From Sphingorhabdus lutea (GTDB lineage Bacteria; Pseudomonadota; Alphaproteobacteria; Sphingomonadales; Sphingomonadaceae): a DNA stretch of 64,000 nucleotides. The stretch is from contig NZ_CP018154.1 in assembly GCF_001889025.1 (NCBI RefSeq), positions 2,284,501 to 2,348,500 of the forward strand, read 5' to 3'. This document shows positions 49,790-63,703 of the stretch, piece after piece (position 1 is the first letter of the stretch; each line of letters opens with the position of its first letter). Under the pieces are notes generated by a model. That model saw only the letters and a list, made by a program, of their open reading frames with translations. It was not told the DNA's origin and did no database searches. A program made the translations under genes and the position numbers.

Positions 49790-49827
49790 GATAAATCCTT
49801 TTTCAATATATGATGATTTTTTGGCCC

Positions 49828-49853
49828 GCCCCTTTGGCCAGCCCCTTTGGCCT
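49828..49853. repeat. 13-bp tandem repeat next to gp15
   Basis: GCCCCTTTGGCCA and GCCCCTTTGGCCT lie head to tail between the gp14 stop and the gp15 start. Confidence 0.7.
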
Positions 49854-49865
49854 ACCCCTGTTTAA

Positions 49866-49914
49866 CGGATGATGCCTGTTGACCGGATGATGCCTATTGA
49901 CCGGATGATGTTGG
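49866..49914. repeat. 18-bp tandem repeat at the gp14 3' end
   Basis: CGGATGATGCCTGTTGAC, then the same with one change, then CGGATGATG of a third copy. The repeat spans the gp14 stop codon (49894-49896), so the last residues of gp14 (CPTSSGQ) come from it. In another frame it reads as repeated HHPVNR. Confidence 0.8.
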
Positions 49915-50355
49915 ACAGGCGCAATATTTCCATGCCCCTGATATGGGCCAATTATCCGGCATGGGCGCACAGACCACCGATTGAACAGCATGATATGCGT
50001 GGATAGCGGATAAACCCCGCCCCGCCGTAATGGCAAAATGCACCTGACGCGCATCGGGCCGAACCATAATGATATTTCCCGCCACATGATATGCGCTATC
50101 AATGTTAATTGGACAAAATTCCGGCCGCGTGAAAAAATCGCTTATCCGTTTATTGCTGCGTTGCCGCAGGCTATATCCAATGGGAATATCGCCCACAAAT
50201 CCAATATTTTGTAAAGATAAGGACAATGTCCCAACACAATCCAACCCCGTATCGGCGCTTCGCCCCCATAATTTAAACGATGTGCCAATATATTTCTGTG
50301 CTGCGCTAAACAGCTTTGCCCGACAGAGGCAATTTTGCATAATGTGATGCGCCAT
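49894..50355 (-). CDS. GTA NlpC/P60-type cell-wall peptidase (gp14)
   Basis: 153 residues. The fold has the catalytic Cys40 in SADTGLDCVGTL and His106 in QVHFAIT, as in the peptidase carried at the GTA tail tip that opens the recipient's peptidoglycan. Usual family length is about 150. The C-terminus runs into a tandem repeat. It starts 6 bases after the gp13 stop without a clear ribosome site, so coupling to gp13 is probable; Met6 is another possible start. Confidence 0.85.
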   Translation of the reverse strand: MAHHIMQNCLCRAKLFSAAQKYIGTSFKLWGRSADTGLDCVGTLSLSLQNIGFVGDIPIGYSLRQRSNKRISDFFTRPEFCPINIDSAYHVAGNIIMVRPDARQVHFAITAGRGLSAIHAYHAVQSVVCAPMPDNWPISGAWKYCACPTSSGQ

Positions 50356-50361
50356 TATTGG

Positions 50362-51201
50362 TTAAATGGCATTGGGATATCGGGTCAATAAATCATTGCC
50401 CGGCAAAAATGGTTCGCCTCGAAAATTTTGGGCATTTTCGAAACGATCGCCACATGCCGAAATGCTTTTGGGGCAGCCTTGGGTCAATAAAATCATATCA
50501 CCCACTTGCGCTGAGGCATAAGGCATATCGACAATTTTCACACTATTTACATCATTATCCCAAATGGCCGATTTATGTCCGCATGATCGCCCGCTTAAAA
50601 ATTTAATGCTGCCATGTGCCAGATAATGGGGGGTTAATTGCACCGCCGGGGTGATAAAAATTCGTTCCCCCTCAATTTTTTCAATATGCGCCCTGCACCG
50701 ATATTTATTCAAATTTATACCGCATTTTGCATCGCCCAATCGCGCACGGCATGTTGGCGATGTTTTGGGAATGATGGGGTATAATAACGCCGCCGATATT
50801 CCCTCCAACTCTGCGGTGAAATGATGCCCATCATGGCGGATCGCCCCCATATGATAAATGGACATTTCATCATCAATAATGGTTTTTTTGTCCCAATCGG
50901 CAATGGCCAATTTTATTTGCGCATAATCCCATTTTCCCGCCCGTATATCCGCATCGGTAATGGCATTATTGGACAAAATGCCATCCACATCCGGCCCATT
51001 ATTTTCAAGTCCCAATGCCGCATCGATGCTGGTGGGGATTAACCCGCTACTGGCATGATAATCTATCCCATTTATTGCCACATTTCGGTCATGTGATGTA
51101 AAGGCCAACATGATCCCATCATGGCGCAAAATTTGCCAAATATAACAAAAACTGGTCAATGGCGGCGCAGATGATAAATTTTCATCATGTTGATTATCCA
51201 T
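50362..51201 (-). CDS. GTA tail hub protein, DUF2163 (gp13)
   Basis: About 279 residues from ATG 51201 (the Met at 51207 or 51219 are alternatives; GGGGC lies 8 bases before 51201). The N-terminal DUF2163 part has FCYIWQILRHDGIMLAFTSH, and the C-terminal part ends with SACGDRFENAQNFRGEPFLP, a conserved phage end with cysteines that in Rhodobacter binds an iron-sulfur cluster. Other cysteines are in TCRARLGDAKCGINLNKYRC. It forms part of the baseplate hub. Its start overlaps the gp12 stop by 8 bases. Confidence 0.87.
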   Translation of the reverse strand: MDNQHDENLSSAPPLTSFCYIWQILRHDGIMLAFTSHDRNVAINGIDYHASSGLIPTSIDAALGLENNGPDVDGILSNNAITDADIRAGKWDYAQIKLAIADWDKKTIIDDEMSIYHMGAIRHDGHHFTAELEGISAALLYPIIPKTSPTCRARLGDAKCGINLNKYRCRAHIEKIEGERIFITPAVQLTPHYLAHGSIKFLSGRSCGHKSAIWDNDVNSVKIVDMPYASAQVGDMILLTQGCPKSISACGDRFENAQNFRGEPFLPGNDLLTRYPNAI

Positions 51202-53557
51202 TGCCATTTGCCCCGTCAAAAATCGGTGCTTCTTTTAATTCTATCAAATCTATATTGGGGATTTCCCCTGCACCAAATTGTGAAATGGAACAATCAATTT
51301 GATCGTTCATAAACCGCACCGGCACTTCAAATAAATAACCCGCCCTTATCACCGCGCCATTTGGTGGGGGATTGTTAAAAATAATCATGCCATTATCGCC
51401 CAATGTCCAATTTTGCACAATGGCTGCGTCTAGAGATATTGTAACCGTATCGGCAATGGGACAAAATATTGGCCGCACATCATGCCCATCTTCGCCTATA
51501 TTTTTCACCAATTGAAACGAAGTTTGCACATCATCCCCAATGCCAATTTTTTGGTCAAATGCGCTCGGCGTGCCGGTCATATTATGTGAACTATTGTCCA
51601 ATGGATCAAAAAAGCGAAACCCCTTGGCCGGCCCTTTCATCCTTTTAAAAAATTGCAAAACGCTTTCCACATCCTGTTGTGAACGAAGCCCGCTGCCCAC
51701 ATCATAAATATTACGCGCATTGGCCCATTGGGCATTGCGATATTCATTGCCATTTTGCGTGGTGGAAATAATGGTGGAAAATTGCGGGCTGATGGTCGCG
51801 CCCATGCCAATATTGATGGGGAAAGATATTTGTTCAAAATTGTTCAATGCGCCCTCCTGTTCTTTATTCAAATTAAAATAGACAAAACCGTCGCGTAAAA
51901 TTTGTGGCAAGGCCCAAATAAAAATATCGCCTATGCCGCGTGTTGATGCAGATAAAATCGCCTGATGAATATGTGTCCATTGATGATCATCCTGCGCTCG
52001 CAGGACAAAACCGGCAAAATAATGTTGATGCATTGGGGGATAGTTAAGCCGCGCATTGGCCGCCCTTATCGCGCGGTCAGATGCACCAAAATTACCCTCC
52101 ACTATCCAATCATAATCTTCCAACTGTAATATATCAAAGGCGGGATATGCCCAATTTGAAGGCAAATTTGCGCGGGCCATTTCGGGGGATTCTTCGTTTA
52201 ATATGCTTGGTAAAAATGCCAATAATGCTATTTTCGCATTGGCGCCAAATGTTGCCGCTTGCCCCCTTACCGCATCGCGCAGGGCAAGGGTTGACTGCCC
52301 CAAAATATCACCTGCTTTGTCCAACATCGCGTTTTGTACGGCGGTTTTTGGCCCGCGAATATCGGCAATGCTGGTCAATAAATTGTCAAATTTTATAATC
52401 GCCGCCTCGTCATACAAACAGGGCCTATGGTCATTTGTCACCCACCACCATGGCTCGCCAATTTGGAAAATAACCGGTAAATTGGCCGCCAATAAAATAC
52501 GGGTAAATGCCCGCGCAACATGTTGTAAATATCCCATTGCCGCATCATTTGCGGGCGATAATAAAGTTGATGGCGGCCTCCATCCGGTAAGGGCGGGATC
52601 GCCATTGGCCGCGCGCTGTTTCCAATCATCTGGGCAATGCGCATCAAATAATTCATAAGAAAGCGAGAATATCAGCTCAAATCCATAAATTTTGGCAAAG
52701 TCCGCAAAATTCTCATGCCATTTTTGGCAAGGCAAATTTAACGCGTCATTCACGCTGTCGATCATATGCCCGCCATTATGGGGGTTAAGGTTGAAATAAT
52801 GGCTCATCCCCACATAATGGTTGATGCTTTTTCGGTAACCAAGGGCGTGGATTTGCGACATTAACCGTTCTGGGGTGACATGATAATGATCATCATAACC
52901 GCTGGCCATACGCACATGATGTTCGGGTAAGGACACATCGCCAATATCCAAAATTGCGCCCTCACCGATGCAGCTTATTTCCGAAATTTCCGCCCAAGCA
53001 TGTTGGCCACCGGCAAAGGGGGTATTTGTGCCGTCATATCCGGCGGGCGCCATGGAAATGAACATGCGGTCAATATCGGCGGCATGCACCTTTACGCCTT
53101 CATTGGGGAGGAGAAAACCGCCATATAAATCAGCAAAATTAAGGGTGATTTGCGCGTCATACGGGCTGCCCTGTGCATAATTCCACAACCGCACATAATA
53201 TGACATGGCGTTGCCAGCTGCATCGCGCCCTTCAATGGTTAAAACAGGACCATTTACTGCGTTTAATGCGACTATGCCATGTGATTTCCAATGAAATTTC
53301 AATGTCACATGACGATAATCGCGATTTGTTGTATAGGATAAAAGCGAGTGGTCCCACTCATCCTCACTATTCCATATCAGACCGCAAATCTCATTTTTAT
53401 GATAAAAAATATGCTCCACCCGCATGGCATCGGGCGCGGTGGTCACCACGCTGGCCATCATCGGCCTTGGGAAATTCACACTCCAATATTTTGGGTCAAA
53501 GCGCATCAGAACATTTTTGTCCTGCACACTTCTTTCTTTACAAAGCCAATAGCTCAT
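51194..53557 (-). CDS. Long GTA gp12: glycosidase-like region plus DUF2460 tail protein
   Basis: 787 residues from ATG 53557 (AAGGGG 9 bases upstream; an in-frame ATG at 53578 is alternative). Only the C-terminal 220 residues or so (INIGMGATISPQFSTIISTT, DVGSGLRSQQDVESVLQFFK, GFRFFDPLDNS, VPVRFMNDQID) are the DUF2460 distal-tail protein, which is about 210 residues in Rhodobacter GTA. The preceding 560 residues have a beta-sandwich-like start and then an alpha/beta region resembling a glycosidase TIM barrel, with acidic residues after strands (FSLSYELFDAHCPDDW, IFQIGEPWWWV, ILQLEDYDW). It may bind or cut surface sugar. Whether it is an active enzyme is unknown. Confidence 0.78.
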   Translation of the reverse strand: MSYWLCKERSVQDKNVLMRFDPKYWSVNFPRPMMASVVTTAPDAMRVEHIFYHKNEICGLIWNSEDEWDHSLLSYTTNRDYRHVTLKFHWKSHGIVALNAVNGPVLTIEGRDAAGNAMSYYVRLWNYAQGSPYDAQITLNFADLYGGFLLPNEGVKVHAADIDRMFISMAPAGYDGTNTPFAGGQHAWAEISEISCIGEGAILDIGDVSLPEHHVRMASGYDDHYHVTPERLMSQIHALGYRKSINHYVGMSHYFNLNPHNGGHMIDSVNDALNLPCQKWHENFADFAKIYGFELIFSLSYELFDAHCPDDWKQRAANGDPALTGWRPPSTLLSPANDAAMGYLQHVARAFTRILLAANLPVIFQIGEPWWWVTNDHRPCLYDEAAIIKFDNLLTSIADIRGPKTAVQNAMLDKAGDILGQSTLALRDAVRGQAATFGANAKIALLAFLPSILNEESPEMARANLPSNWAYPAFDILQLEDYDWIVEGNFGASDRAIRAANARLNYPPMHQHYFAGFVLRAQDDHQWTHIHQAILSASTRGIGDIFIWALPQILRDGFVYFNLNKEQEGALNNFEQISFPINIGMGATISPQFSTIISTTQNGNEYRNAQWANARNIYDVGSGLRSQQDVESVLQFFKRMKGPAKGFRFFDPLDNSSHNMTGTPSAFDQKIGIGDDVQTSFQLVKNIGEDGHDVRPIFCPIADTVTISLDAAIVQNWTLGDNGMIIFNNPPPNGAVIRAGYLFEVPVRFMNDQIDCSISQFGAGEIPNIDLIELKEAPIFDGANGNG

Positions 53558-53640
53558 CAAAATATGCCCCTTCATCATTATTTATTCGCCGCAAATGCGC
53601 CAATTTATTGGGAAAAATGCTTGCTTTTGAGACAGCCGCT

Positions 53641-54225
53641 TTATGAGGAAAGTGCTTGGCGGACCTGTCTTGCAATTTGCCTGCTGGATTTACGCAGGCT
53701 GTCTGGTGCGCTGCCCCGGCCATTATCAGACACATTGATGTTAATGTTCACATTTGCGCCGCGTCCTGAAATTTGCGGCACAATATTTCCCCCGCTACTT
53801 GGCACAAATAATTCAGGGCCATTTTCCCCCACCATATATGCCCGGCCCGATGATACTGGCCCACCTGTGGCCCGCCCCGGTGCGCCCAATGCCGCCGCGG
53901 CAACTTGGCCCAAACTGCCCAAAATCCCGCTTATCCCGACGCTTTGCCCCCCTGCACTGGCGCCAAATATTGTCCCAATACCCGATTTAATCGCAGAGGA
54001 TGCAATATCGGACAAAACCGATAATGCAATTTTACGCAAATCCTCAAAACCAAATTTGCCCCGCTCTATCGCGCTTAATAACCCGCGTTCAAGCCCGCGG
54101 CCCGCCCGTTCCAACCCATCGGCAAATGGCCCGTCAAGCTGGGTCTTCATGCTTTGTAAATCGCGGGCAAAGCCGCCCGTGTCGGCGCGTATGGCGATGA
54201 CAAGTTCATCAATATCCCTATTCAT
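53641..54225 (-). CDS. GTA tail tape measure protein (gp11)
   Basis: 194 residues. An N-terminal helical region (DELVIAIRADTGGFARDLQS), a Gly/Ala-rich hydrophobic centre (GIGTIFGASAGGQSVGISGI) and a conserved phage end (ATGGPVSSGRAYMVGENGPE, LFVPSSGGNIVPQ) identify it. The length of a tape measure sets tail length; 194 residues implies a tail of GTA size. It overlaps the preceding chaperone gene by 8 bases. Confidence 0.87.
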   Translation of the reverse strand: MNRDIDELVIAIRADTGGFARDLQSMKTQLDGPFADGLERAGRGLERGLLSAIERGKFGFEDLRKIALSVLSDIASSAIKSGIGTIFGASAGGQSVGISGILGSLGQVAAAALGAPGRATGGPVSSGRAYMVGENGPELFVPSSGGNIVPQISGRGANVNININVSDNGRGSAPDSLRKSSRQIARQVRQALSS

Positions 54226-54427
54226 CTGGAAAATCTTTCGTTAATTTATCAATTATGTCGCGATATTTTTCGGGTGATGATGGCGCCGACAAACCGGCAA
54301 AAATATGGGCGATTTCTGATGGTGTGGCCTGCCAACATTGATCCAGCGTCCACCCAAAATTTATAATCAACTGAGCATGTAATTTCATGATAAAGCCGGC
54401 AAAATAATCATCCGACTGCATCATCAT
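54218..54427 (-). CDS. GTA tail assembly chaperone, small form (gp10.1)
   Basis: 69 residues with LHAQLIINFGWTLDQCWQAT, the pattern of the small phage/GTA protein family TIGR02216 that follows the tail chaperone. It overlaps gp10 by ATGA and gp11 by 8 bases. It is predicted to guide tape-measure folding together with gp10; several Met codons at the start leave the first residues open. Confidence 0.8.
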   Translation of the reverse strand: MMMQSDDYFAGFIMKLHAQLIINFGWTLDQCWQATPSEIAHIFAGLSAPSSPEKYRDIIDKLTKDFPDE

Positions 54428-54732
54428 CGACCCATTAAAATTTGTTGTAATAATATTTTTAATGGCGGGGTTGCGTTGGCCAACCCGCCAGCCACCAATT
54501 TGGCCGAGAATATTTTTCTATCCACCGGTTTATCACACAAACAATGCCAATAAAGGGCGGATAAATGCGACAATTTTAATTGTCCTGCCGCTGCTTGTTC
54601 GACCATTTCAAATAAAGGGCCAATTTCTTCCTCTGCCGCGATTAAATTTTCAAAACTGGGCCGCAATATATAAATTTCGCCGTCCAAATTTAACGCGGCC
54701 TCTCCGCGATGGGGGTTTGCAATATTGTTCAT
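54424..54732 (-). CDS. GTA family tail assembly chaperone (gp10)
   Basis: 102 residues. NPHRGEAALNLDGEIYILRP and SFENLIAAEEEIGPLFEMVE match the gene-transfer-agent gp10 family (DUF3356-like). A chaperone role for tail assembly is inferred from the position between tail tube and tape measure. It overlaps gp9 and gp10.1 by four bases each. Confidence 0.83.
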   Translation of the reverse strand: MNNIANPHRGEAALNLDGEIYILRPSFENLIAAEEEIGPLFEMVEQAAAGQLKLSHLSALYWHCLCDKPVDRKIFSAKLVAGGLANATPPLKILLQQILMGR

Positions 54733-55136
54733 GCGCTTATCACCGGACCGCTGCTTTCCAACGACAGGGTATAATTGCGCTCTCCATTATAATCGCCGGA
54801 ATAATCAAGCCGCGTGACCAGAAATTTGCCCGACAATTTTTCACCGCTCTCAAAACATAATTGATAATCATCAATCAACCCTGACATCGCCATTTGCCGC
54901 AATCTTTGTTCCGCCTGTGATCCGGTAAAAATACCCGCCGCCGACACCGATACGGAACGCACGCCAGCGCCGGATAATAATTCGCGCCACCCATTTGACC
55001 CCTTATGGGTAATGTTGACGCTATCGCCGTTCACGCTCATCTGTGTGGTGCGTAATCCCGCCATTATTTGATAAGCTATGGGGGTGTTGCCATCGCCATT
55101 TTTTAATAAAAAGGCACTGCCCTTTTCTGCTGCCAT
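54729..55136 (-). CDS. GTA major tail tube protein (gp9, TP901-1 type)
   Basis: 135 residues of the TP901-1 major tail family: KGSAFLLKNGDGNTPIAYQI, GLRTTQMSVNGDSVNITHKG, WRELLSGAGVRSVSVSAAG and the end NYTLSLESSGPVI. Six copies form each ring of the tail tube. It starts 26 bases after the DUF3168 gene. Confidence 0.9.
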   Translation of the reverse strand: MAAEKGSAFLLKNGDGNTPIAYQIMAGLRTTQMSVNGDSVNITHKGSNGWRELLSGAGVRSVSVSAAGIFTGSQAEQRLRQMAMSGLIDDYQLCFESGEKLSGKFLVTRLDYSGDYNGERNYTLSLESSGPVISA

Positions 55137-55162
55137 AATATGTCTCCGACTATTGTTAAAAT

Positions 55163-55564
55163 TTATTGATTGTGGATTGAAATGCGGGCCATGACACCCA
55201 AATCAAATGTCCATTTGCCGTCCGCAGTGCGTGAAGTTTCCTGCCGCAAAATTTGCATATTGATAATGTCATAACCGTCTTGAGCGCGGGGCATATTTTC
55301 AATCATTTTTGGTAATAATTGATGGATTTCTTCGCCGCCCACCTCCTCGCTTCGCGGCGCAATATATCGCAATGCCATACGTATTTCCTGCCCCTGAAAC
55401 TCTGTTCCTGACCATGGCAATGCCATGCTGTTTTGAATGTTGATATAAGGCGGCGTGGCCTTATCCGGCCGCGCGAGATATACCGCATTTACATGCGCCA
55501 TAATTTTTGCATTTTCGCGCAGCAATTGGCATATCGCACCGCATAATTTATATTCATAACTCAT
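55163..55564 (-). CDS. GTA tail terminator, DUF3168 (gp8)
   Basis: 133 residues, DUF3168 pattern: LCGAICQLLRENAKI near the start, PYINIQNSMALPWSG, and MRALRYIAP-like region (IRMALRYIAPRSEEVGGEEI). In Rhodobacter GTA this protein caps the upper end of the tail. It follows the small gp7-like gene by 20 bases. Confidence 0.83.
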   Translation of the reverse strand: MSYEYKLCGAICQLLRENAKIMAHVNAVYLARPDKATPPYINIQNSMALPWSGTEFQGQEIRMALRYIAPRSEEVGGEEIHQLLPKMIENMPRAQDGYDIINMQILRQETSRTADGKWTFDLGVMARISIHNQ

Positions 55565-55584
55565 CGGCCATATTCCTTTTTGCT

Positions 55585-55803
55585 TTATTTTTTAATGGTC
55601 CATCGCATCAGGGGATTTTCATCCAATTTGGCCGATAATGATGGCGCGGAAATGATGATGCTGTCCGTTTCTGCCTTTGCATTTACGCCATTAAATTGCC
55701 CCAAATCAGATGCGATATATTGCCCCTTTTCATGGCATATTTGCTGCGCTTTTTTCTTTGCATATTGGTGTAATTTACTGCTTATCTCTTGGCCCATTTT
55801 CAT
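55585..55803 (-). CDS. Small GTA protein at the gp7 position
   Basis: 72 residues from ATG 55803, whose first bases overlap the gp6 stop as ATGA; a longer in-frame start at 55830 lies inside gp6. It is helical and basic at the start (MKMGQEISSKLHQYAKKKAQ), then has IASDLGQFNGVNAKAETDSI. It occupies the slot of the head-closure (stopper) protein gp7 in Rhodobacter, which is longer, so I cannot claim homology. Confidence 0.6.
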   Translation of the reverse strand: MKMGQEISSKLHQYAKKKAQQICHEKGQYIASDLGQFNGVNAKAETDSIIISAPSLSAKLDENPLMRWTIKK

Positions 55804-56291
55804 AAACGCATCGCCCGATATGGCCGCCATAAAGCGGCAATTACAGGCGGAATTTCACCCATATTTTCATTGGCTATATCGCCATTATTTTGCCGGTATA
55901 AAAATGCCGCCAATCGCAAAATTCCCATGCGCAACGGCGCATCAATATCATCCCAATGGGCATGACATCCCACGTCAAAATATGCCCTTATTCGGCCCGC
56001 CGCTCCTGCTGTCATGACCAGGATTTTACCCTCCACATCATAAATTGAAATAATCGGGCGCTGTTTTATCATCTGCCATCCTGAACATATTGGCATTTCC
56101 ACCCTGCCCCGCCGCAATAATAAACGGGCAGAGATAAATTTCTCGCAAATGTCCATCGCGGTGCGGATATGACCCATTAAAAGGGCGTCTTCATCGGATA
56201 TGCTGATCCGCAAATCGCCCTTTAATTCATGCAGTGCGGAGGCCGAAATAACCGGACGGTCCAATTTTATATTTGTCATCGCGCCTGTCAT
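55800..56291 (-). CDS. GTA head-tail connector protein (gp6)
   Basis: 163 residues of the gp6-like connector family: ISDEDALLMGHIRTAMDICE, KFISARLLLRRGRVEMPI, and RMGILRLAAFLYRQNNG near the end, matching GTA gp6 (adaptor between portal and tail). It overlaps the upstream gene by ATGA and the downstream gene likewise. Confidence 0.85.
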   Translation of the reverse strand: MTGAMTNIKLDRPVISASALHELKGDLRISISDEDALLMGHIRTAMDICEKFISARLLLRRGRVEMPICSGWQMIKQRPIISIYDVEGKILVMTAGAAGRIRAYFDVGCHAHWDDIDAPLRMGILRLAAFLYRQNNGDIANENMGEIPPVIAALWRPYRAMRL

Positions 56292-56569
56292 AAATTTTCC
56301 ACCCGCACGGAAATGCTGCGTTCATCCCATGTCCCATTGGTGAAAATAATTTTGTTGGATAGGCTGTATGTCGCGCCTATTTTGCCGCCTTCAATGGACA
56401 CAAAACTATGCGTGCCGTCATGGCCATCGCCGACAATGGCCACCCCATTTTCATGCACGGGTATAATTGTCCAACTGCTTTGTTCAATCAATTCATTGGC
56501 GGCATATTGCGCGTGCCAATCAAAACGATAATCAACCCGCGATTGCGGGTCTTTTAATAATAATGTCAT
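56288..56569 (-). CDS. Small phage protein of unknown function
   Basis: 93 residues: MTLLLKDPQSRVDYRFDWHA, then a beta-rich part (WTIIPVHENGVAIVGDGHDG, GKIGATYSLSNKIIFTNGTW). Proteins with a similar LKDP...DYxxDW start are common next to capsid genes of tailed phages; their job is not known. It overlaps gp6 by ATGA, so it belongs to the operon. Confidence 0.7.
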   Translation of the reverse strand: MTLLLKDPQSRVDYRFDWHAQYAANELIEQSSWTIIPVHENGVAIVGDGHDGTHSFVSIEGGKIGATYSLSNKIIFTNGTWDERSISVRVENL

Positions 56570-56627: not shown

Positions 56628-56813
56628 TCAAAATTGCGGCGGGGCATTTTTTTTGCGTGCGGAAATTACGCCATCACCAGCTATAGACGGGGTGATACCG
56701 CGTGCCTTATTGCCCCAATATTTTGCCTGTCTGATGGCCAATTGCATGTCAGATGTGCGGGTTAAATTGGCATGGCAAATGGCGTATCGACCAAGTGAAT
56801 ATGCGCCCGTCAT
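56628..56813 (-). CDS. Very small protein following the S74 fibre
   Basis: 61 residues. Its ATG overlaps the fibre stop as ATGA, which argues that it is real. It has SLGRYAICHANLTRTSDMQL, AIRQAKYWGNKARG and SIAGDGVISARKK, no membrane segment and no motif I can name. Perhaps a fibre-associated or chaperone protein, purely from position. Confidence 0.6.
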   Translation of the reverse strand: MTGAYSLGRYAICHANLTRTSDMQLAIRQAKYWGNKARGITPSIAGDGVISARKKNAPPQF

Positions 56814-58069
56814 TTTTTTGCCAGTTTTTGATTTGGTAGCCTTTGTTTTGCCAGCCTTTGTTTTGCCAGCCTATTTTCTATCGCCGCCAATTTTTCCGAT
56901 AATCGCCTAAATTCGCGTCTTTGCCATACAGCCTCCATCGCGAAACATTCGTCATAGCGAAGCCCCCAACGATAGTGCGTCTCGCCATCCTTATCCACAT
57001 CGCCAATTTCATCACGGCAGCAAAGGCCCGTGGAAAATGCGTCCAACCCACGTGCGGCAAATGCGTCAAAAACGCGCTGTGCGATTAAGCCTGCATGCCA
57101 TCTTTTCCCGCCGCGAAAACGATATCTTTGCCATTGAACATCACCCCATGCGTCAATCCAGCAATCGGGAATTTTGCCAATATGTTTTTTGGCATTTTCA
57201 TCCGATGTGTTTATCGCGCCGCTGCCTGCAAAAATGCTGGCCCATCTGGCCCCGGCATGGCCCAAATTTTGTTGATTATCCCGCGCGGCATATACCCCGC
57301 CATTGGCATCTATGGTCATTTGATCCATGCCATTGGTGTTAAAATTTATCCGCCCGCCCCAATTGGCATAGCCAGCGGTTAATTTTAATTCCCCAACCAG
57401 GGCAAGGAAATCCACACTGCCACGTTCGACCCCGCCCGCCTTAAATTTCATCCCGCCGCGATTGTTTAAAACATTGCTGTTGGTGACGATATAGGGGGAT
57501 GTGCCATGCACCTCCAATAATTCGGCGGGGCTATCCGTGCCTATGCCCACTTTACCCGTGGATGTAATGTTAAAACCTGTGCCGCTGCTATATTTTCCGT
57601 TGGCATCTTTGGTCAGGCAATTGGCCAGCTGCGCTGATAATCCGCTGATGGAGGATATGGGGTGAATATGGCTTGATAAGCTATAGCTGCCCGCCGCCTG
57701 TTTACCGTCCAACGCGCTTTGTAATCCGGTGATGGAGGATATGTCATGGCCATGCTGCATAAACCATGTGGCCGATGGGGTTAAAACAACCATTTTTAAT
57801 CCGGCGGTAAAATCCACCTTTGCCCCATTTGCGGATGATGAAAAAATGACGACGCGGTTTAATGCGCCATTTTGGGTTAATTGCCCCTCACCCACTTCCC
57901 ATTCACCGACCTTTGTAATGCCCGAAATGGCATAATGGAATTTTTGTCCCGCCGGTACATTATCGGTAAAGCGGCGATGGCCGGCAATTGCGCCATCTAA
58001 GCTAATCTCACCCAAACCCTCGCTATTTGTGCGCTCACCGATTAGGTCAGCAAAAAATAAATTACTCAT
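56810..58069 (-). CDS. Tail fibre with C-terminal S74 intramolecular chaperone
   Basis: 419 residues from the second Met (AGAGG distance is best for 58069; 58072 is alternative). The beta-structured N-terminal part and collagen-like HIHPISSISGL are followed by a fibre shaft (TGKVGIGTDSPAELLEVHG). From about 285 the S74 chaperone begins: INTSDENAKKHIG carries Ser289 and Lys294, the Ser-(5)-Lys dyad that self-cleaves in phage endosialidases, followed by GKRWHAGLIAQRV. The last 35 residues form a coiled coil of LAKQR repeats. It trimerises the fibre and is then cut off. Its place between capsid and connector is unusual for a GTA. Confidence 0.87.
   Translation of the reverse strand: MSNLFFADLIGERTNSEGLGEISLDGAIAGHRRFTDNVPAGQKFHYAISGITKVGEWEVGEGQLTQNGALNRVVIFSSSANGAKVDFTAGLKMVVLTPSATWFMQHGHDISSITGLQSALDGKQAAGSYSLSSHIHPISSISGLSAQLANCLTKDANGKYSSGTGFNITSTGKVGIGTDSPAELLEVHGTSPYIVTNSNVLNNRGGMKFKAGGVERGSVDFLALVGELKLTAGYANWGGRINFNTNGMDQMTIDANGGVYAARDNQQNLGHAGARWASIFAGSGAINTSDENAKKHIGKIPDCWIDAWGDVQWQRYRFRGGKRWHAGLIAQRVFDAFAARGLDAFSTGLCCRDEIGDVDKDGETHYRWGLRYDECFAMEAVWQRREFRRLSEKLAAIENRLAKQRLAKQRLPNQKLAKK
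56838..56872. repeat. 15-bp tandem repeat inside the fibre gene
   Basis: AGCCTTTGTTTTGCC twice, then a partial copy, coding for repeated LAKQR at the C-terminal end of the S74 protein. Confidence 0.75.
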
Positions 58070-58088
58070 CATCGCCTCTATCTTTAAT

Positions 58089-58177: not shown

Positions 58178-59401
58178 TTATGACGCTGCGAATTTCATTA
58201 CTTTAATCGCATCGCTATTCATCAACTGGCCGCCCACGCGCTTTGTCGCGTAAAAATGCACAAAGGGTTTATTGCTATATGGGTCACGCAAAATGCTGGT
58301 CGAGCTTCGCTCTGCAATTAAATATCCCGCATTAAAATTGCCAAATGCAATGGACAGGCTGTTCGCCGCCACATCGGGCATATCCTCCGCCTCTATCACG
58401 GGATACCCTAATAAAGTCGCAGGCTGTCCCACTGCCATAGATGGTTGCCACAAAAATGCGCCATCACTGGTTTTCATTTTGCGGATACGCGCCACGGTCG
58501 CGCTGTTCATCACAAAAACCGCCCCTTGGCGATAGGCGGGTTTTAACGCGTGGATAAGGTCAACAATCTTATCCTGTGGGTTGGCGGCGGCAAATGCACC
58601 CGCCGCGCCCGATGGAATATATTGCAATGTGCCAAATGCGCGAACATTATCATTTTCCAAGGTGGTCGGGCCGGTTAAAAAACCCTTTGGCTGGTTCACG
58701 CCCGTGCCGTTGATAAAGGCGGCGGCCTCCGCCCGGGCAAATTCGGCAGCAATTTCACCCGACAACCAATTTTCAACATCAAATGCCGCATCGTCCAACA
58801 TGGCTTGGCTGGCCGCAGGATTGGCATATAAATCGCCAGTTGGCGGCGCAATTTCAACAAAATTGGGGGTTGCCGTCATCGGGCGCGGCGCACTGTCCGA
58901 TGCCCAGCCAGAGGGCGTGCCGCCGGTGGTCACCAATTTGCGATATCCCGCGCTGCCCGTTTGGACCACATTGGCAATGGCGCGAATGGGGGAGATATTG
59001 GTTAACATGCGCCCAATCATTGTGTCAATTTCGCGCGGCACGGCAAATCCGCCATCTGCGCCCGAACCAATGGACAGCGACTTTAACTCAGTTTCCCGTC
59101 CGCTGCGTAAATATCCATCGACAAAGCTGCGCGATGCAGCGGATGAATAAAGCGATTTTTTACCCTCAACATTGCCGCCATTTTGCGGATTGGACAATGC
59201 GGGGCGTGCGGCGGCCGATGCCACCTTGTCCAAACGGGTCTTCACCGACTCCACATCGGATTTCACGCCGTCCACACTCTCGCTCAATTGTGAAATGACG
59301 CTTTCCTGCGCCTCAATTTTATCCACCAAATCAAATGATGCCTCCAATGGATCAATGTGATTATTTGATGTTGCTTCTGCCTTAATTTCAATATTTTTCA
59401 T
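58178..59401 (-). CDS. GTA major capsid protein, HK97 fold (gp5)
   Basis: 407 residues from ATG 59401 (AAGGAAAG upstream; an in-frame start at 59425 is poorer). The N-terminal delta domain with coiled coil (DLVDKIEAQESVISQLSESV) is removed by the protease. The mature capsid begins near GNVEGKKSLYSSAASRSFV and contains GGFAVPREIDTMIGRMLTNI, ANPAASQAMLDDAAFDVENW, FINGTGVNQPKGFL and LLGYPVIEAEDMPDVAANSL. It forms the head shell. Terminators lie on both sides, so it is likely an independent, strongly expressed unit. Confidence 0.93.
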   Translation of the reverse strand: MKNIEIKAEATSNNHIDPLEASFDLVDKIEAQESVISQLSESVDGVKSDVESVKTRLDKVASAAARPALSNPQNGGNVEGKKSLYSSAASRSFVDGYLRSGRETELKSLSIGSGADGGFAVPREIDTMIGRMLTNISPIRAIANVVQTGSAGYRKLVTTGGTPSGWASDSAPRPMTATPNFVEIAPPTGDLYANPAASQAMLDDAAFDVENWLSGEIAAEFARAEAAAFINGTGVNQPKGFLTGPTTLENDNVRAFGTLQYIPSGAAGAFAAANPQDKIVDLIHALKPAYRQGAVFVMNSATVARIRKMKTSDGAFLWQPSMAVGQPATLLGYPVIEAEDMPDVAANSLSIAFGNFNAGYLIAERSSTSILRDPYSNKPFVHFYATKRVGGQLMNSDAIKVMKFAAS

Positions 59402-59558
59402 ATAATATCTTTCCTTGTTGCACAATAATTCGCCCGCAAAGCCGCATGAAATTCATGAAAGCCGCAGGTGAAATTTTATATATTTTTTGGTATTTATGGG
59501 CTATTTAGACTTGCCTATTGCTGGCTGGCCTATTGCTGGCTGGCCTAATTTTGGGCGT
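59402..59558 (-). promoter_or_regulatory. Capsid gene leader with repeats and probable promoter
   Basis: This 157-base stretch between the DUF4760 terminator and the capsid ATG contains an AT-rich segment with TATAAAAT, then a palindrome CATGAAATTCATG between two GCGGCTTT copies, then the ribosome site. At its far end CCTATTGCTGGCTGG is duplicated in tandem (59514-59543). It must hold the capsid promoter if the terminator upstream works; no clear -35 was found. Confidence 0.45.
59514..59546. repeat. 15-bp tandem repeat upstream of the capsid gene
   Basis: Two perfect copies of CCTATTGCTGGCTGG and the first bases of a third. Confidence 0.8.
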
Positions 59559-59583
59559 AAAAAAACCGCCCAAAAGGACGGTT
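59559..59583 (-). terminator. Intrinsic terminator of the DUF4760 gene
   Basis: On the minus strand AACCGTCC and GGGCGGTT form an 8-bp stem (one T-G pair) with a 4-base loop, followed by TTTTT. It starts 27 bases after the stop codon of the inserted gene. Confidence 0.88.
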
Positions 59584-59609: not shown

Positions 59610-60161
59610 TTAAGCGGCAAAAATATTACATATTGCCTTCCATTTACGGGTCATCCAATTGGGCTTGCCGTCCCAATCCTTATCATCCTGCCATTTTTTG
59701 GCCAATGCCTCAAACTCACAAAATATTTTTGGATTATTTTTATAGTTTCTAACTTCATTTAAATAACCTGTCATGGTTTGATAATCATCAATATAGGCGC
59801 CATTAAACCAGCGGCGAAACACCATTTCATCAATGACGCCTTCTTTTATCGAAACCGCGACCAATTCGTTTACATTTAATGTTGTCCTAATATTATTGGC
59901 TTCTTCCGAATCCTTTTCATCTTCTTTTCCCCATTTCGCGGAGTTAAACTCGCCTTTTTTCAATTTGATAAACTCTTTACGCGCCGCAATTAAATCACCA
60001 TCCGATTCAATATGCATTATTAAATCTAATGTACCGCGCCGCTTCGCCATTTTACGGTTTGAATATATTGTGACAAAAGCCAATATAGCAGATATAATAA
60101 CGGCTCCCCCAGTTATGAGAGAGCCGTAAACCGTCCAAAATTCATGTATAGATTCTATCAA
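59610..60161 (-). CDS. DUF4760 membrane protein inserted in the GTA cluster
   Basis: 183 residues from a TTG start with GGAGG 9 bases upstream; no in-frame ATG exists earlier, and the next Met would remove the membrane helix. One N-terminal helix (YGSLITGGAVIISAILAFVT) is followed by a cytoplasmic helical part: RRGTLDLIMHIESDGDLIAA, LNVNELVAVSIKEGVIDE and FRRWFNGAYIDDY, the DUF4760 pattern. The function is not known. It has its own terminator, an AT-rich leader and no GTA homologue, so it looks like a cargo gene (moron) between protease and capsid. Confidence 0.75.
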   Translation of the reverse strand: MIESIHEFWTVYGSLITGGAVIISAILAFVTIYSNRKMAKRRGTLDLIMHIESDGDLIAARKEFIKLKKGEFNSAKWGKEDEKDSEEANNIRTTLNVNELVAVSIKEGVIDEMVFRRWFNGAYIDDYQTMTGYLNEVRNYKNNPKIFCEFEALAKKWQDDKDWDGKPNWMTRKWKAICNIFAA

Positions 60162-60408
60162 ATCTATTAGCCTCCATGACCTTCATATAATCTCATGATA
60201 CGCTCCTTTTTTAAGCCTTTCAGTAGCCTTTACGTTACCGAGTATTTATTTGATATATTATCTGTTAACGCATTATACAATATTTTTATACCATTATGGC
60301 ATATTAAATTTACGCCATTATTGGTTAATCCCAATATATAGCAAAACGCGATTAACAATAAATTAAATAGCCATTAAGTTCATATCAATATTAAAAAAAA
60401 CAGCAAAC
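60162..60408 (-). promoter_or_regulatory. AT-rich leader of the DUF4760 gene with short upstream reading frame
   Basis: This 247-base gap is very AT-rich. On the minus strand it has a TATAAT box (about 60274-60279, preceded by no good -35), then AAGGAG and a 9-codon frame (ATG 60196, MRLYEGHGG, TAA 60167-60169) whose end overlaps the GGAGG site of the DUF4760 gene. TTAA-N7-TTAA (60352-60366), a CtrA-type box, lies 191 bases upstream of the gene. Confidence 0.5.
60352..60366. promoter_or_regulatory. Possible CtrA box inside the GTA cluster
   Basis: TTAAC at 60352-60356 and TTAA at 60363-60366, the TTAA-N7-TTAA spacing with the consensus C after the first half. It is in an AT-rich gap, so a chance match cannot be excluded. 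Confidence 0.35.
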
Positions 60409-60846
60409 TCACCCATCCACCAAATGTACATGGACGCGCGGTTGCATGGGGTGGGTGACGATGCTGACCTCCACCAATTCCAATTTTTGTAAATGGCGCG
60501 GATTTTGTCCGCTACTTTCCTGCACTCTATATCCAAAGGAAAGCCCGCGCACCGCGCCGCTTTGCACATAATCGGCAATTTGGACATCTTCATTATACGA
60601 TAATTTCGCAATCACGCGCAGCCCGCGTCTATCCTCCCCCGCCATATCCAAAACGCCAATTTGCCGCCCCGGATCATGCTGCCATAAAAGGGGGATGCTC
60701 CGCCCATTTACCATAAAATCACGCAGGCTATCGGTAAATGCACCTTGGCTGATAATATCCCCGCCCTTGTCCATATGGTCAAAAATCGCGGCATAGCCCG
60801 CAAAGCGCAGCATTTTTTTTGGCAATAAATTCTCACGCCCCCTCAT
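60409..60846 (-). CDS. GTA prohead protease, HK97 type (gp4)
   Basis: 145 residues from ATG 60846, which overlaps the upstream stop as ATGA; a longer in-frame start exists at 60921 but lies within that gene. Family motifs: RFAGYAAIFDHMDKGGDIIS, His57 in IPLLWQHDPGRQIG, Ser103 in GAVRGLSFGYRV and the end LELVEVSIVTHPMQP. It matures the capsid by removing the delta domain. Confidence 0.92.
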   Translation of the reverse strand: MRGRENLLPKKMLRFAGYAAIFDHMDKGGDIISQGAFTDSLRDFMVNGRSIPLLWQHDPGRQIGVLDMAGEDRRGLRVIAKLSYNEDVQIADYVQSGAVRGLSFGYRVQESSGQNPRHLQKLELVEVSIVTHPMQPRVHVHLVDG

Positions 60847-61151
60847 TTTAGATATTCCGTCAGGCCAAATCGAACCGCAAGGCCGATTAAAAATATGGCC
60901 AACACCCCCTTTACCATCCAATCAATTGCCGCCTTCCACGCGCCCTTTTTCGCATCGCGCCATGCGGCCAATAATAAACGAAGTTCGGTCAAATCCTTTT
61001 GCGCATGGTCATCGGACAATCCCAATTTGGCCAATGCCCGCCTTGCGCCTGCCTCGCTTGATTGGTCGATAATGGCGTAAATAGTGGCCAAATCCGCGCC
61101 CGATTGTTCCGCCTGACGGGTTAAATGGCCCAACATTTTGGTCTCATTCAT
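60843..61151 (-). CDS. Small GTA protein at the g3.5 position (DUF6127-like)
   Basis: 102 residues. A helical N-terminal part (GHLTRQAEQSGADLATIYAI, ARRALAKLGLSDDHAQKDL) is followed by a single membrane helix near the C-terminus (MVKGVLAIFLIGLAVRFGLT). A small membrane protein stands here in GTA clusters (rcc01685 position), and the pattern resembles DUF6127. It overlaps the portal gene by 8 bases and the protease by 4. Confidence 0.75.
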   Translation of the reverse strand: MNETKMLGHLTRQAEQSGADLATIYAIIDQSSEAGARRALAKLGLSDDHAQKDLTELRLLLAAWRDAKKGAWKAAIDWMVKGVLAIFLIGLAVRFGLTEYLK

Positions 61152-62355
61152 CGCCTGCCTCCACGCATAAATGGGTCAATCCCAACATGGCGCGTTTTTC
61201 CTCTTTGGACAGGAAATCGGCGCTGCTGACCTGCGCCCATAATTTTTCTCTATCCTCTGCCAATGCGGTAATCATATCCAAATCAAGTTCAATTTTCGCG
61301 CCCTTCACCCATGGGTTTAACCCTGCCGATATTGCGCCGAAAATCTTATTACACATGGGGATGAGGGTAAGCCGCCATAATGCGCGATTTGCCTCTTTAT
61401 AATTGGCATAGCTATTATCCCCTGGCAGGCCCATCAACATGGGCGGCACACCAAAGGCAAGCGAGATTTCACGCGCCGATGCCGCCTTTAACGCCACAAA
61501 ATCCATATCGGCGGGCGACATGCTTAATGATTGCCATTTTAACCCGCCTTCCAATAATAAAGGCCTGCCCGCATTATATGCGCCGGAAAATCCCGCCTCC
61601 ATTTCCGATTTTAAACGATCAAATTGTTCACTGGTCAGGGTGGCCGTGGGATCGCCAGGGTCATAAATTAACGCGCCCGATGGCCGCGCCGCATTGTCCA
61701 AAAATGCCTCATTCCATTTGGTCGCGGCATTATGCACCGCCACTGCGCGCATCGACGCGGCTAAACATCCTGTGCCATAATGGTCATCATGGGGGCTAAA
61801 CCCACGTAAATGGATGATTTGCGGACGCCCCGCCTCATCATAGGCGGCAATTTCGCTCACATTCTGCCCGATCTGATATTGATAAGCCACCGGCCATCCA
61901 TCATCACCTGCAATAATTTTGACGCGGTCGGGACGCAGCGCATATAAAGCAGAAATGCGTCCCAAATAATCGCACTGCACATGAATAAACGCATTGCCGT
62001 GAAGCAGGAAATGTGCGCTCACATCTTCTAAAATAGTAAATCCGCCATCATTTTTGTCAATCAATGCGGCAATTTCTGGCGAGCTGATTTTCAACACCGC
62101 GCCGGAAATGGCATCGGTAATCATTCGCACCGCGCGTTGTGCCACCGGATTTTCGCAATATGCCTGCTGTGCATGGGCAATATAATTTGCCCCATTGCCA
62201 AATTGAACCGCCATATCATTTTTGATATTTTGAGCCCATGGCGGGGCAGTCATGCCATATATATGGCCCATATTTGCAGCGGATGATTTTTTTCCAATAT
62301 CATCGCCGCCCTGCCCCGTCCGAATAAGGGCACGGAATTTTTCCATCATCTTCAT
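61144..62355 (-). CDS. GTA portal protein (gp3)
   Basis: 403 residues of the HK97-type portal family. Visible parts are QAYCENPVAQRAVRMITDAI, FLLHGNAFIHVQCDYLGRIS, LYALRPDRVKI, IIHLRGFSPHDDHYGTGCLA, and SLAFGVPPMLMGLPGDNSYA. Twelve copies form the DNA channel at the head vertex. AAGGA precedes the ATG. It follows the large terminase by 25 bases. Confidence 0.93.
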   Translation of the reverse strand: MKMMEKFRALIRTGQGGDDIGKKSSAANMGHIYGMTAPPWAQNIKNDMAVQFGNGANYIAHAQQAYCENPVAQRAVRMITDAISGAVLKISSPEIAALIDKNDGGFTILEDVSAHFLLHGNAFIHVQCDYLGRISALYALRPDRVKIIAGDDGWPVAYQYQIGQNVSEIAAYDEAGRPQIIHLRGFSPHDDHYGTGCLAASMRAVAVHNAATKWNEAFLDNAARPSGALIYDPGDPTATLTSEQFDRLKSEMEAGFSGAYNAGRPLLLEGGLKWQSLSMSPADMDFVALKAASAREISLAFGVPPMLMGLPGDNSYANYKEANRALWRLTLIPMCNKIFGAISAGLNPWVKGAKIELDLDMITALAEDREKLWAQVSSADFLSKEEKRAMLGLTHLCVEAGDE

Positions 62356-62380: not shown

Positions 62381-63703
62381 TTAAAAACGAATTTTGGGCA
62401 TGGCCCGCCTGCCCAGCATCAACTCCGTCATCGCCCAAACCAGCGCATCGGCGCGGTCGGGCGAACGGCCCGGTCCTTCATAATTTCCGCCAATCATCAT
62501 GCCGCATAATTGATCTTCCAATGCGTCAAATCGTCCGGCATGCACAACGCGCCCCGCCTCATATAATGCCGCGACCGGTTCGGCCCGCGCCATTTTGCCA
62601 CGGCTGGCATGGACCAGTTTGATGGGCAGGTTGATATTCGCCGCGCGAAGTACGCTGCCCACCATATCACCGCCCTGATTTGCCTCGGCCACCACATGGT
62701 CCGCACCCCAGTTTTCGGCCAAATTGGCCACTTGCCGCGCCCATTTTTCGGGCGAAGCCTTGGCAATGCTGCCATCATATAACAGCGCGCCGCGCCCATC
62801 GGTTAACCCCGCCGCGACAATGATGCCGCATTCATCGCCTCTATCACTTGCGGGTGGATCAACCGATATGATGATGCGCGATATTTGCTCTGGCTCAATT
62901 GGCGTTGCAATTCGGCATTTCTGCAATATTGGCCTCGTCCATAATGCGCCGTCAATTTCGCAAAGCAATTCGCCGGACAATTCCTGACGCCCCAAATTGC
63001 TTTGCCCATATTGCGCCTCCATCGCGGCGATAAAATCGGGGGGAAGAGCCGCGCGATTATCCTGTGTTGTGCCCTTGGTAATGACCACATCGTCCCGCGC
63101 CATGATATTTTGCAATAATATGTTTCGGCGCGGCGTGGTGGTTACCAAAATTTGCGGTTTTTTACCCAAACGAAGGCCCATGGCCAAATTATCCCATGCG
63201 TCAATATTTTTTCCGCCGCTATGTTCCCATTTGGTTAATTCATCACACCATGCATGGCTATGTTGCGGGCCGCGCAATGCCTCTGGCGATTGGGCGGAAT
63301 AACAATATGCCGCCGCCCCATTGGCCCATATTATTTGGCGCAGGCTGGATTCCCATTTTACTGGTAAATGGCGGCGCTGCGTTGATAATATGCCGCTATC
63401 CCCTTCCACCATCGTGGCGCGAACATCATATAAATTATCCCCCAATAATGCAATTTTTACATGTGGATTTGCGGCGGCAATGTCATGCACCCATTCCGCG
63501 CCCGCACGGGTTTTTCCAAAACCGCGCCCCGCCATTATTAACCAAATACGCCAATTTCCCTTTGGCGGTAACTGTGATGGCCGCGCCAATATGCGCCATT
63601 CATATTTTAATTTACCCAATTGAGTTGGCGACAGGGAATTTATGAATTTGTGCAGTTCATCCGGCGGCAACATGCTGATTTGCTGCCAAATGCTATATTC
63701 CAC
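62381..63703 (-). CDS. GTA large terminase / DNA packaging protein (gp2)
   Basis: 440 residues from a GTG start that overlaps the small terminase stop by 11 bases. The ATPase has Walker A at residues 58-65 (AGRGFGKTRAGAEW) and Walker B-like SHAWCDELTKWE. The C-terminal nuclease has ISVDPPASDRGDECGIIVAA and VAEANQGGDMVG with its acidic residues in place. It packages chromosomal pieces into GTA heads; in known GTAs the motor has lost specificity for its own DNA. Confidence 0.94.
   Translation of the reverse strand: MEYSIWQQISMLPPDELHKFINSLSPTQLGKLKYEWRILARPSQLPPKGNWRIWLIMAGRGFGKTRAGAEWVHDIAAANPHVKIALLGDNLYDVRATMVEGDSGILSTQRRHLPVKWESSLRQIIWANGAAAYCYSAQSPEALRGPQHSHAWCDELTKWEHSGGKNIDAWDNLAMGLRLGKKPQILVTTTPRRNILLQNIMARDDVVITKGTTQDNRAALPPDFIAAMEAQYGQSNLGRQELSGELLCEIDGALWTRPILQKCRIATPIEPEQISRIIISVDPPASDRGDECGIIVAAGLTDGRGALLYDGSIAKASPEKWARQVANLAENWGADHVVAEANQGGDMVGSVLRAANINLPIKLVHASRGKMARAEPVAALYEAGRVVHAGRFDALEDQLCGMMIGGNYEGPGRSPDRADALVWAMTELMLGRRAMPKIRF

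Follow-up and report, generated by a model that had tools for sequence, protein, structure and literature searches.

The DUF4760 gene in the Sphingorhabdus lutea DNA analysed here (one 64-kb stretch, called the window below) is very probably a moron, and the place that it occupies a recurrent cargo slot within a domesticated phage, namely a sphingomonad RcGTA-like cluster. Insulation of this slot by a terminator is fairly probable, and so are the two statements taken jointly. As a rule, GTAs are portrayed as invariant sets of structural genes. If a slot amid the head genes varies and is tied to internal terminators, this would account for the carriage of foreign genes without loss of particle production, would mark a new site at which toxin-antitoxin and defence genes can be sought, and would allow the anti-termination model to be tested for GTA control beyond Caulobacter.

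A gene with a TTG start between protease and capsid had been proposed in an earlier note on this DNA, and several lines of evidence bore it out. The ORF (59610-60161, minus strand) encodes 183 aa and matches PF15956 (DUF4760) with 110.6 bits (cut-off 25) over positions 4-141 of the 141 of the profile; its second family match was phrog_2284 (104 bits). The motif GGAGG (60175-60171) lies 9 nt ahead of the TTG. W9, G13, G19, A20 and S24 are conserved across an alignment of 19 sequences and support the TTG start; conservation among homologues sets in at W9. The protein-database entry from the same genome has 157 aa; its annotator therefore picked a start further in, which counts against the TTG start. 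A single hydrophobic stretch at about residues 14-32, with a basic stretch behind it, likely forms one N-terminal membrane helix; the remainder of the protein would then presumably lie in the cytosol. Comparison of the DUF4760 sequence profile with solved structures gave nothing credible (best E 0.56), and the protein had no PADLOC match. GC content was 37.5% in the gene and 28.3% in its leader, compared with 46.7% in the window, so that both show the deviating base composition of a moron. A transposon around the gene was also considered, and the flanking repeats were unconvincing (AT-rich and imperfect, the longest 34 nt at 71%). A 12-bp hairpin with an AT-rich tail, scored as terminator-like, was observed within the first DUF4760 codons (60100-60127, minus strand).

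The leader (60162-60408, minus strand; 247 nt) includes a TATAAT hexamer, a short ORF and the GGAGG motif. It proved to be as AT-rich as the earlier note had claimed, its GC content falling in the lowest 0.2% of all 247-nt windows across the 64 kb. The TATAAT-like box fared less well: the exact hexamer is present at 60277-60272 (minus strand), but by eye it lacks a good -35 element, and the number of promoter-like sites in the region was not significantly above that of shuffled sequences (9 vs. 5.4 ± 2.4, both strands). A 9-codon ORF (60196-60167, minus strand; MRLYEGHGG) with its own ribosome-binding site contains the GGAGG and stops just ahead of the TTG; a leader peptide or translational coupling is possible. 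Between the DUF4760 gene and the capsid gene, just beyond the range 59610-60408 considered earlier, there is a terminator-like hairpin (59564-59583, minus strand; AACCGTCC-TTTT-GGGCGGTT plus a T-run) with an 8-bp stem, a TTTT loop and a folding z of -2.7. The pattern CCGYCCN{3,6}GGRCGGNTTTTT was found once in the 2.53-Mb genome.

The surrounding genes are all on the minus strand. Pfam matches identified the large terminase (62381-63703), the portal (61144-62355), a DUF6127 gene in the gp3.5 position (60843-61151) and the Peptidase_S78 prohead protease (60409-60921), which forms the upstream border of the slot. The downstream border is the major capsid protein (58178-59425, likely ATG at 59401; ORF, Pfam and phrog). 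Between capsid and gp6 there is a tail-fibre-like protein with an S74 chaperone domain (56810-58072), and a protein resembling the Gp77 fibre-tail adaptor (Pfam) lies at 56288-56569. The remaining tail cluster, gp6 to gp15, occupies 47480-56291 in open frames, with a tail tube domain in gp9 and Rcc01698_C (53.6 bits) in gp15. The head and tail genes are collinear from terminase to gp15, and gp15 is of the GTA type. Judged from its genes, this is an RcGTA-like and apparently complete cluster. In a tree of 164 clusters it forms a long branch, the nearest cluster being at a distance of 0.868. The gp12 protein (51194-53578, minus strand; 794 aa) carries an NCTSP (non-contractile tail sheath) N-terminal and a TIM-barrel part fused ahead of DUF2460. 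The relatives L005-L007 likewise have a related fibre behind the capsid gene, and 24 clusters contain Gp77.

Loci for comparison were picked by the likeness of their capsid to that of the window: the best 80 genome-contig matches, 100 places of the family, the window itself and 19 places of its genus. When compared over the final 900 nt of their capsid frames, these 200 loci reduced to 171 unique ones, and to 168 after removal of three without a protease match (L132, L167 and L262). From IMG/VR 80 loci were fetched; 67 were new by capsid, and 61 were retained once 6 without protease had been dropped. Forty loci of other orders were fetched and 3 dropped, leaving 37. Gap lengths depend on gene starts extrapolated from profiles, and slots of at least 400 bp were counted as occupied.

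The protease-capsid gap reached 400 bp or more in 17 of the 168 unique sphingomonad clusters and stayed below this in 151 (median distance 106 bp). In the IMG/VR collection, 8 of 61 slots had this size, two of them (L322 and L345) holding no convincing gene. The slot content differs between clusters, as expected from the hot spot that the earlier note had predicted. That note would have taken the gene for a normal structural component if all close relatives carried it in the same slot and it were expressed only with the GTA; of 19 further clusters measured in the genus, two carried a cargo unlike DUF4760 and 17 were empty. The scan covered 320 loci with a capsid gene, duplicates included, and found DUF4760 in a single one, that of the window, so that, as expected of a moron, it is absent from this place in most relatives. 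This also agrees with the claim that the gene has no counterpart in the reference GTA, although R. capsulatus itself was not among the loci compared. In the tree of 164 clusters (support values unchecked), at least 12 changes between occupied and empty were counted, and 15 when kinds of cargo were distinguished. The neighbours L073 and L075, 0.116 apart, hold unlike cargo (DUF5694 and a Panacea pair respectively).

The occupied slots held DUF5694 (L073 and L077), a SocA/Panacea antitoxin with a two-helix membrane partner (L075:8865-9820), a TPR-like secreted protein below the Pfam cut-off (L082, L084 and L088), an SdiA-regulated/PEP-CTERM protein (L135), an NYN nuclease matching the candidate defence family HEC-09 (L161, 186 bits), PhyH with DUF805 (L232, L240 and L261), PPK2 with GIY-YIG (L250), a pectate-lyase-like spike (L251), proteins without family (L115, L142 and L165) and, in the window, DUF4760. 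A TacA antitoxin with a GNAT partner was found in the IMG/VR set (L350). Cargo was named by eye, from its likeness to scanned relatives, in L077, L082, L088, L240, L261, L294, L297, L298, L309 and L327. Toxin-antitoxin-like content of the slots amounts to three pairs, with DUF4258 and MqsA matched once each. Of 44 hand-picked cargo ORFs, at most 3 matched PADLOC (HEC-09, CARF3 and RmrA, one member each, tallied by family). The slot thus resembles an antiviral hotspot in its variable content between conserved genes, and is not rich in recognised defence genes.

Other junctions of the clusters were measured in the same way. Gaps of at least 400 bp were present in 55 of 154 terminase-portal junctions; four contain a terminase fragment, and some others no convincing gene. 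Here, 52 of 65 ORFs were scanned, with matches to Panacea, DUF4258, MqsA, GIY-YIG, DUF559, a LuxR regulator and a transposase. The combination of Panacea antitoxin and membrane partner was observed both in the terminase-portal slot of L108 (486-1497) and in the protease-capsid slot of L075. In L166, L213, L256 and L261 a second piece of terminase follows the terminase match within this gap, so that the gene is possibly split there. At capsid-gp6, 40 of 160 gaps were of this length; the breakdown by Gp77 gave 19 of 138, plus 19 of the 22 with a Gp77 gene. Where inspected, they largely held tail fibres; portal-gp3.5 and gp8-gp9 had 10 each (of 160 and 161 respectively). At the portal-gp3.5 junction, proteins of 149-205 aa that by eye look related recur in several clusters (L153-L164) from the genus of the window. 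No such gap was found at gp3.5-protease (0/159), gp9-gp10, gp10-gp10.1 or gp10.1-gp11 (0/162 each); gp6-gp8 was unusable as a test because gp7 sits inside.

Terminator-like hairpins were scanned in the 150 nt ahead of the downstream gene, using thresholds set by us and expectations from single-base (not dinucleotide) shuffles. They were commonest at protease-capsid (80/167) and terminase-portal (44/153), with 2.2 expected at each. The insertion-free junctions had 4/158 (gp3.5-protease), 2/162 (gp9-gp10), 5/162 (gp10-gp10.1) and 7/162 (gp10.1-gp11). Hairpins and insertions were mismatched at capsid-gp6 (15/160, with 40 long gaps), gp8-gp9 (11/161, with 10) and portal-gp3.5 (3/159, with 10). Empty protease-capsid slots of 20-400 bp carried a hairpin in 64 of 132 cases (1.0 expected, 1 on the other strand), and the consensus of 117 empty slots, chosen regardless of hairpins, read GGCCGCCCTCGGGGCGGCC-TTTTT. 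The pre-capsid hairpin was present in 15 of the 17 occupied slots, close ahead of the capsid gene, and in none of the 19 clusters whose protease and capsid genes touch; that of L075 was missed by the scan and is visible by eye. Empty terminase-portal slots had a hairpin in 21 of 98 cases (0.6 expected, 8 on the reverse strand). RNAalifold consensus folding of the pre-capsid regions returned no structure (energy 0).

These counts bear on the claim that the DUF4760 gene has its own terminator. A hairpin does follow the gene, and in its genus the hairpin was found in all three occupied slots and in none of the 17 empty ones. This partly restores the idea that the terminator is simply that of the cargo, an idea weakened by the hairpin-bearing empty slots elsewhere; the hairpin of the window may belong to the capsid leader of the GTA instead. 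Two histories are conceivable: the hairpin arrives with the cargo and at times persists as a remnant of it, or it has long belonged to the capsid leader and was lost in this genus. Several cargoes (PhyH, TPR-like, SdiA-regulated and that of L115) lie on the opposite strand and would have no need for this terminator.

Under the reading that we prefer, a moron in a cargo slot, the cargo is placed between the protease stop and, usually, the hairpin ahead of the capsid gene. When the GTA is off, the hairpin would bar cargo transcription from the capsid gene; when it is on, an anti-terminated polymerase would pass both cargo and hairpin, by analogy with GafZ in Caulobacter, and because of this read-through an insertion would cost the particle little. 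According to PMC11150451, the Caulobacter GTA has a terminator downstream of gtaT (large terminase), and an elongation complex that contains GafZ reads past it. Were sphingomonad GTAs transcribed likewise, neither the genes inserted at these junctions nor their terminators would halt particle production. The content of the slot would be exchanged, probably via recombination in the conserved flanking genes. A wider proposal is speculative, and we consider it rather doubtful: sphingomonad GTA clusters might carry exchangeable accessory genes in terminator-bounded slots (terminase-portal and protease-capsid), made harmless through anti-termination, and the cargo (toxin-antitoxin, nuclease and membrane defence genes) might be swapped between strains by flanking recombination, possibly on GTA-delivered DNA. 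If true, this would make the domesticated virus a small station at which its host exchanges defence genes.

Relatives of DUF4760 were matched in 11 phage and 12 plasmid records, and contexts were obtained from four of the former and two of the latter. The gene adjoins the integrase in Alteromonas phage P24, is one small ORF away from it in Acinetobacter phage BUCTT20, and adjoins cI in a Pseudomonas phage. In a P2-like coliphage it lies between the portal and the replication endonuclease, an interval described as an antiviral hotspot in PMC9122126. On a Kingella plasmid it sits amid phage head genes, a context taken for a Mu-like prophage, while no annotated phage gene was present within 6 kb of it on a Bradyrhizobium plasmid. 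A single-protein search of IMG/VR returned no relative. A defence island around DUF4760 was rejected, as the neighbours of 16 other, chromosomal copies in the order were nearly all housekeeping genes (among the best-represented 25 of 120 Pfam families). PADLOC matches near these copies were mainly one or a few methyltransferases and two caspases (among 25 of 70 families listed), and 2 of 110 neighbours matched Mg_chelatase. In the sphingomonad locus L269 (5900-11033), a Mg-chelatase (ComM-type) gene is present as two pieces, which flank an IS1595 transposase, DUF4760 and two more ORFs.

The earlier note had seen an independently expressed cargo gene. The variable slot and the moron-like places in all four phage records inspected support the cargo part; separate expression is inferred from the leader and the terminator-like hairpin. 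As to function, we favour a single-pass inner-membrane protein whose cytosolic domain acts against other phages; this is the likeliest single role, though proposed tentatively and with less than even confidence. Its mode might be superinfection exclusion or of an abortive type, suggested with the same reserve.

Three other explanations were weighed. That the locus is an ordinary prophage with a moron, and not a GTA, is very improbable: an S74-chaperone tail fibre with a Gp77 adaptor is found in phages too, but the gene order is that of a GTA from terminase to gp15, with Rcc01698_C, DUF2460, hub and tail tube, capsid relatives are present in 256 of the 397 genomes of the family, and reading the list of ORFs from 46 to 64 kb revealed no recognisable integrase, repressor or replication gene. 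A function linked to the GTA, in which DUF4760 would aid or limit particle release or shield the producer or its siblings from particles as a lineage-specific component, is improbable. The gene does lie on the GTA strand within the GTA cluster, and a CARD-NLR-like immune system controls GTA release in Caulobacter, according to the part of PMC13236601 available. Against this, DUF4760 is confined to one of the 320 loci, occurs in ordinary phages, and had no GTA capsid or portal around it in the stretches fetched for the 16 other copies.

A neutral passenger, landing by chance in a permissive intergenic gap, with a DUF4760 that has no role tied to the GTA, is the more serious of these explanations, and we regard it as somewhat unlikely. 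Both junctions are indeed wider than most (medians of 206 bp at terminase-portal and 106 bp at protease-capsid, compared with -8 to 11 bp at the four insertion-free junctions), and the cargo is heterogeneous, including the metabolic-looking PhyH, PPK2 and SdiA-regulated proteins. However, a gap of at least 20 bp is insufficient, since 62 of 158 gp3.5-protease gaps have it and none reaches 400 bp. Moreover, toxin-antitoxin-like cargo is repeated (Panacea with its membrane partner in two slots, TacA/GNAT, and the single DUF4258 and MqsA matches), and together with the unlike cargo in neighbouring clusters it speaks for the turnover of selected genes.

The reading as a moron in a cargo slot was compared with known systems. 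Like phage morons and lysogenic conversion genes, DUF4760 is a single gene between fixed structural genes, with deviant composition and a hairpin behind it, and is absent from relatives. Unlike them, its carrier is a GTA, whose heads are too small for the complete cluster (PMC13236601), so that the particle cannot spread the gene as a phage normally would. The small variable locus between two conserved genes resembles the antiviral hotspots of P2 and P4 (Rousset et al. 2022, PMC9122126, available text), and a DUF4760 relative itself lies in the portal-replication interval of the P2-like coliphage. By contrast, the present slot is surrounded by the late structural genes of a GTA, and most of its cargo has no recognised defence function. 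A terminator inside the cluster, between terminase and portal, is shared with terGTA/GafZ of the Caulobacter GTA. In the available text of PMC11150451, however, terGTA consists of three 150-bp repeats, whereas the sphingomonads have simple hairpins, a second site ahead of the capsid gene, and inserted genes. Extra genes in GTA clusters are already known: the available part of PMC11409702 describes a lysozyme between terminase and portal in Agrobacterium and a cytosine methylase within the Rhodopseudomonas cluster. There, unlike here, the extras are read as phage ancestry and not as a variable slot, and section 10 of that text does not mention protease-capsid. Neither a cargo hot spot nor a pre-capsid terminator was described for GTAs in the literature covered by our search, which left out most subscription journals, and within this reach the hot spot is apparently new. 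The name DUF4760 turned up there in one paper.

Outside the order, the pre-capsid hairpin was found in none of 37 clusters, and 3 of the 37 slots exceeded 400 bp; L408 had no ORF of 80 aa, L387 was doubtful, and L403 contained a clear gene pair. L403 comes from a low-GC alphaproteobacterium, and the pair in its protease-capsid slot (L403:4405-6176) consists of a DUF5131 gene and a gene for a second protein (no Pfam match), which presumably resembles TcmP.
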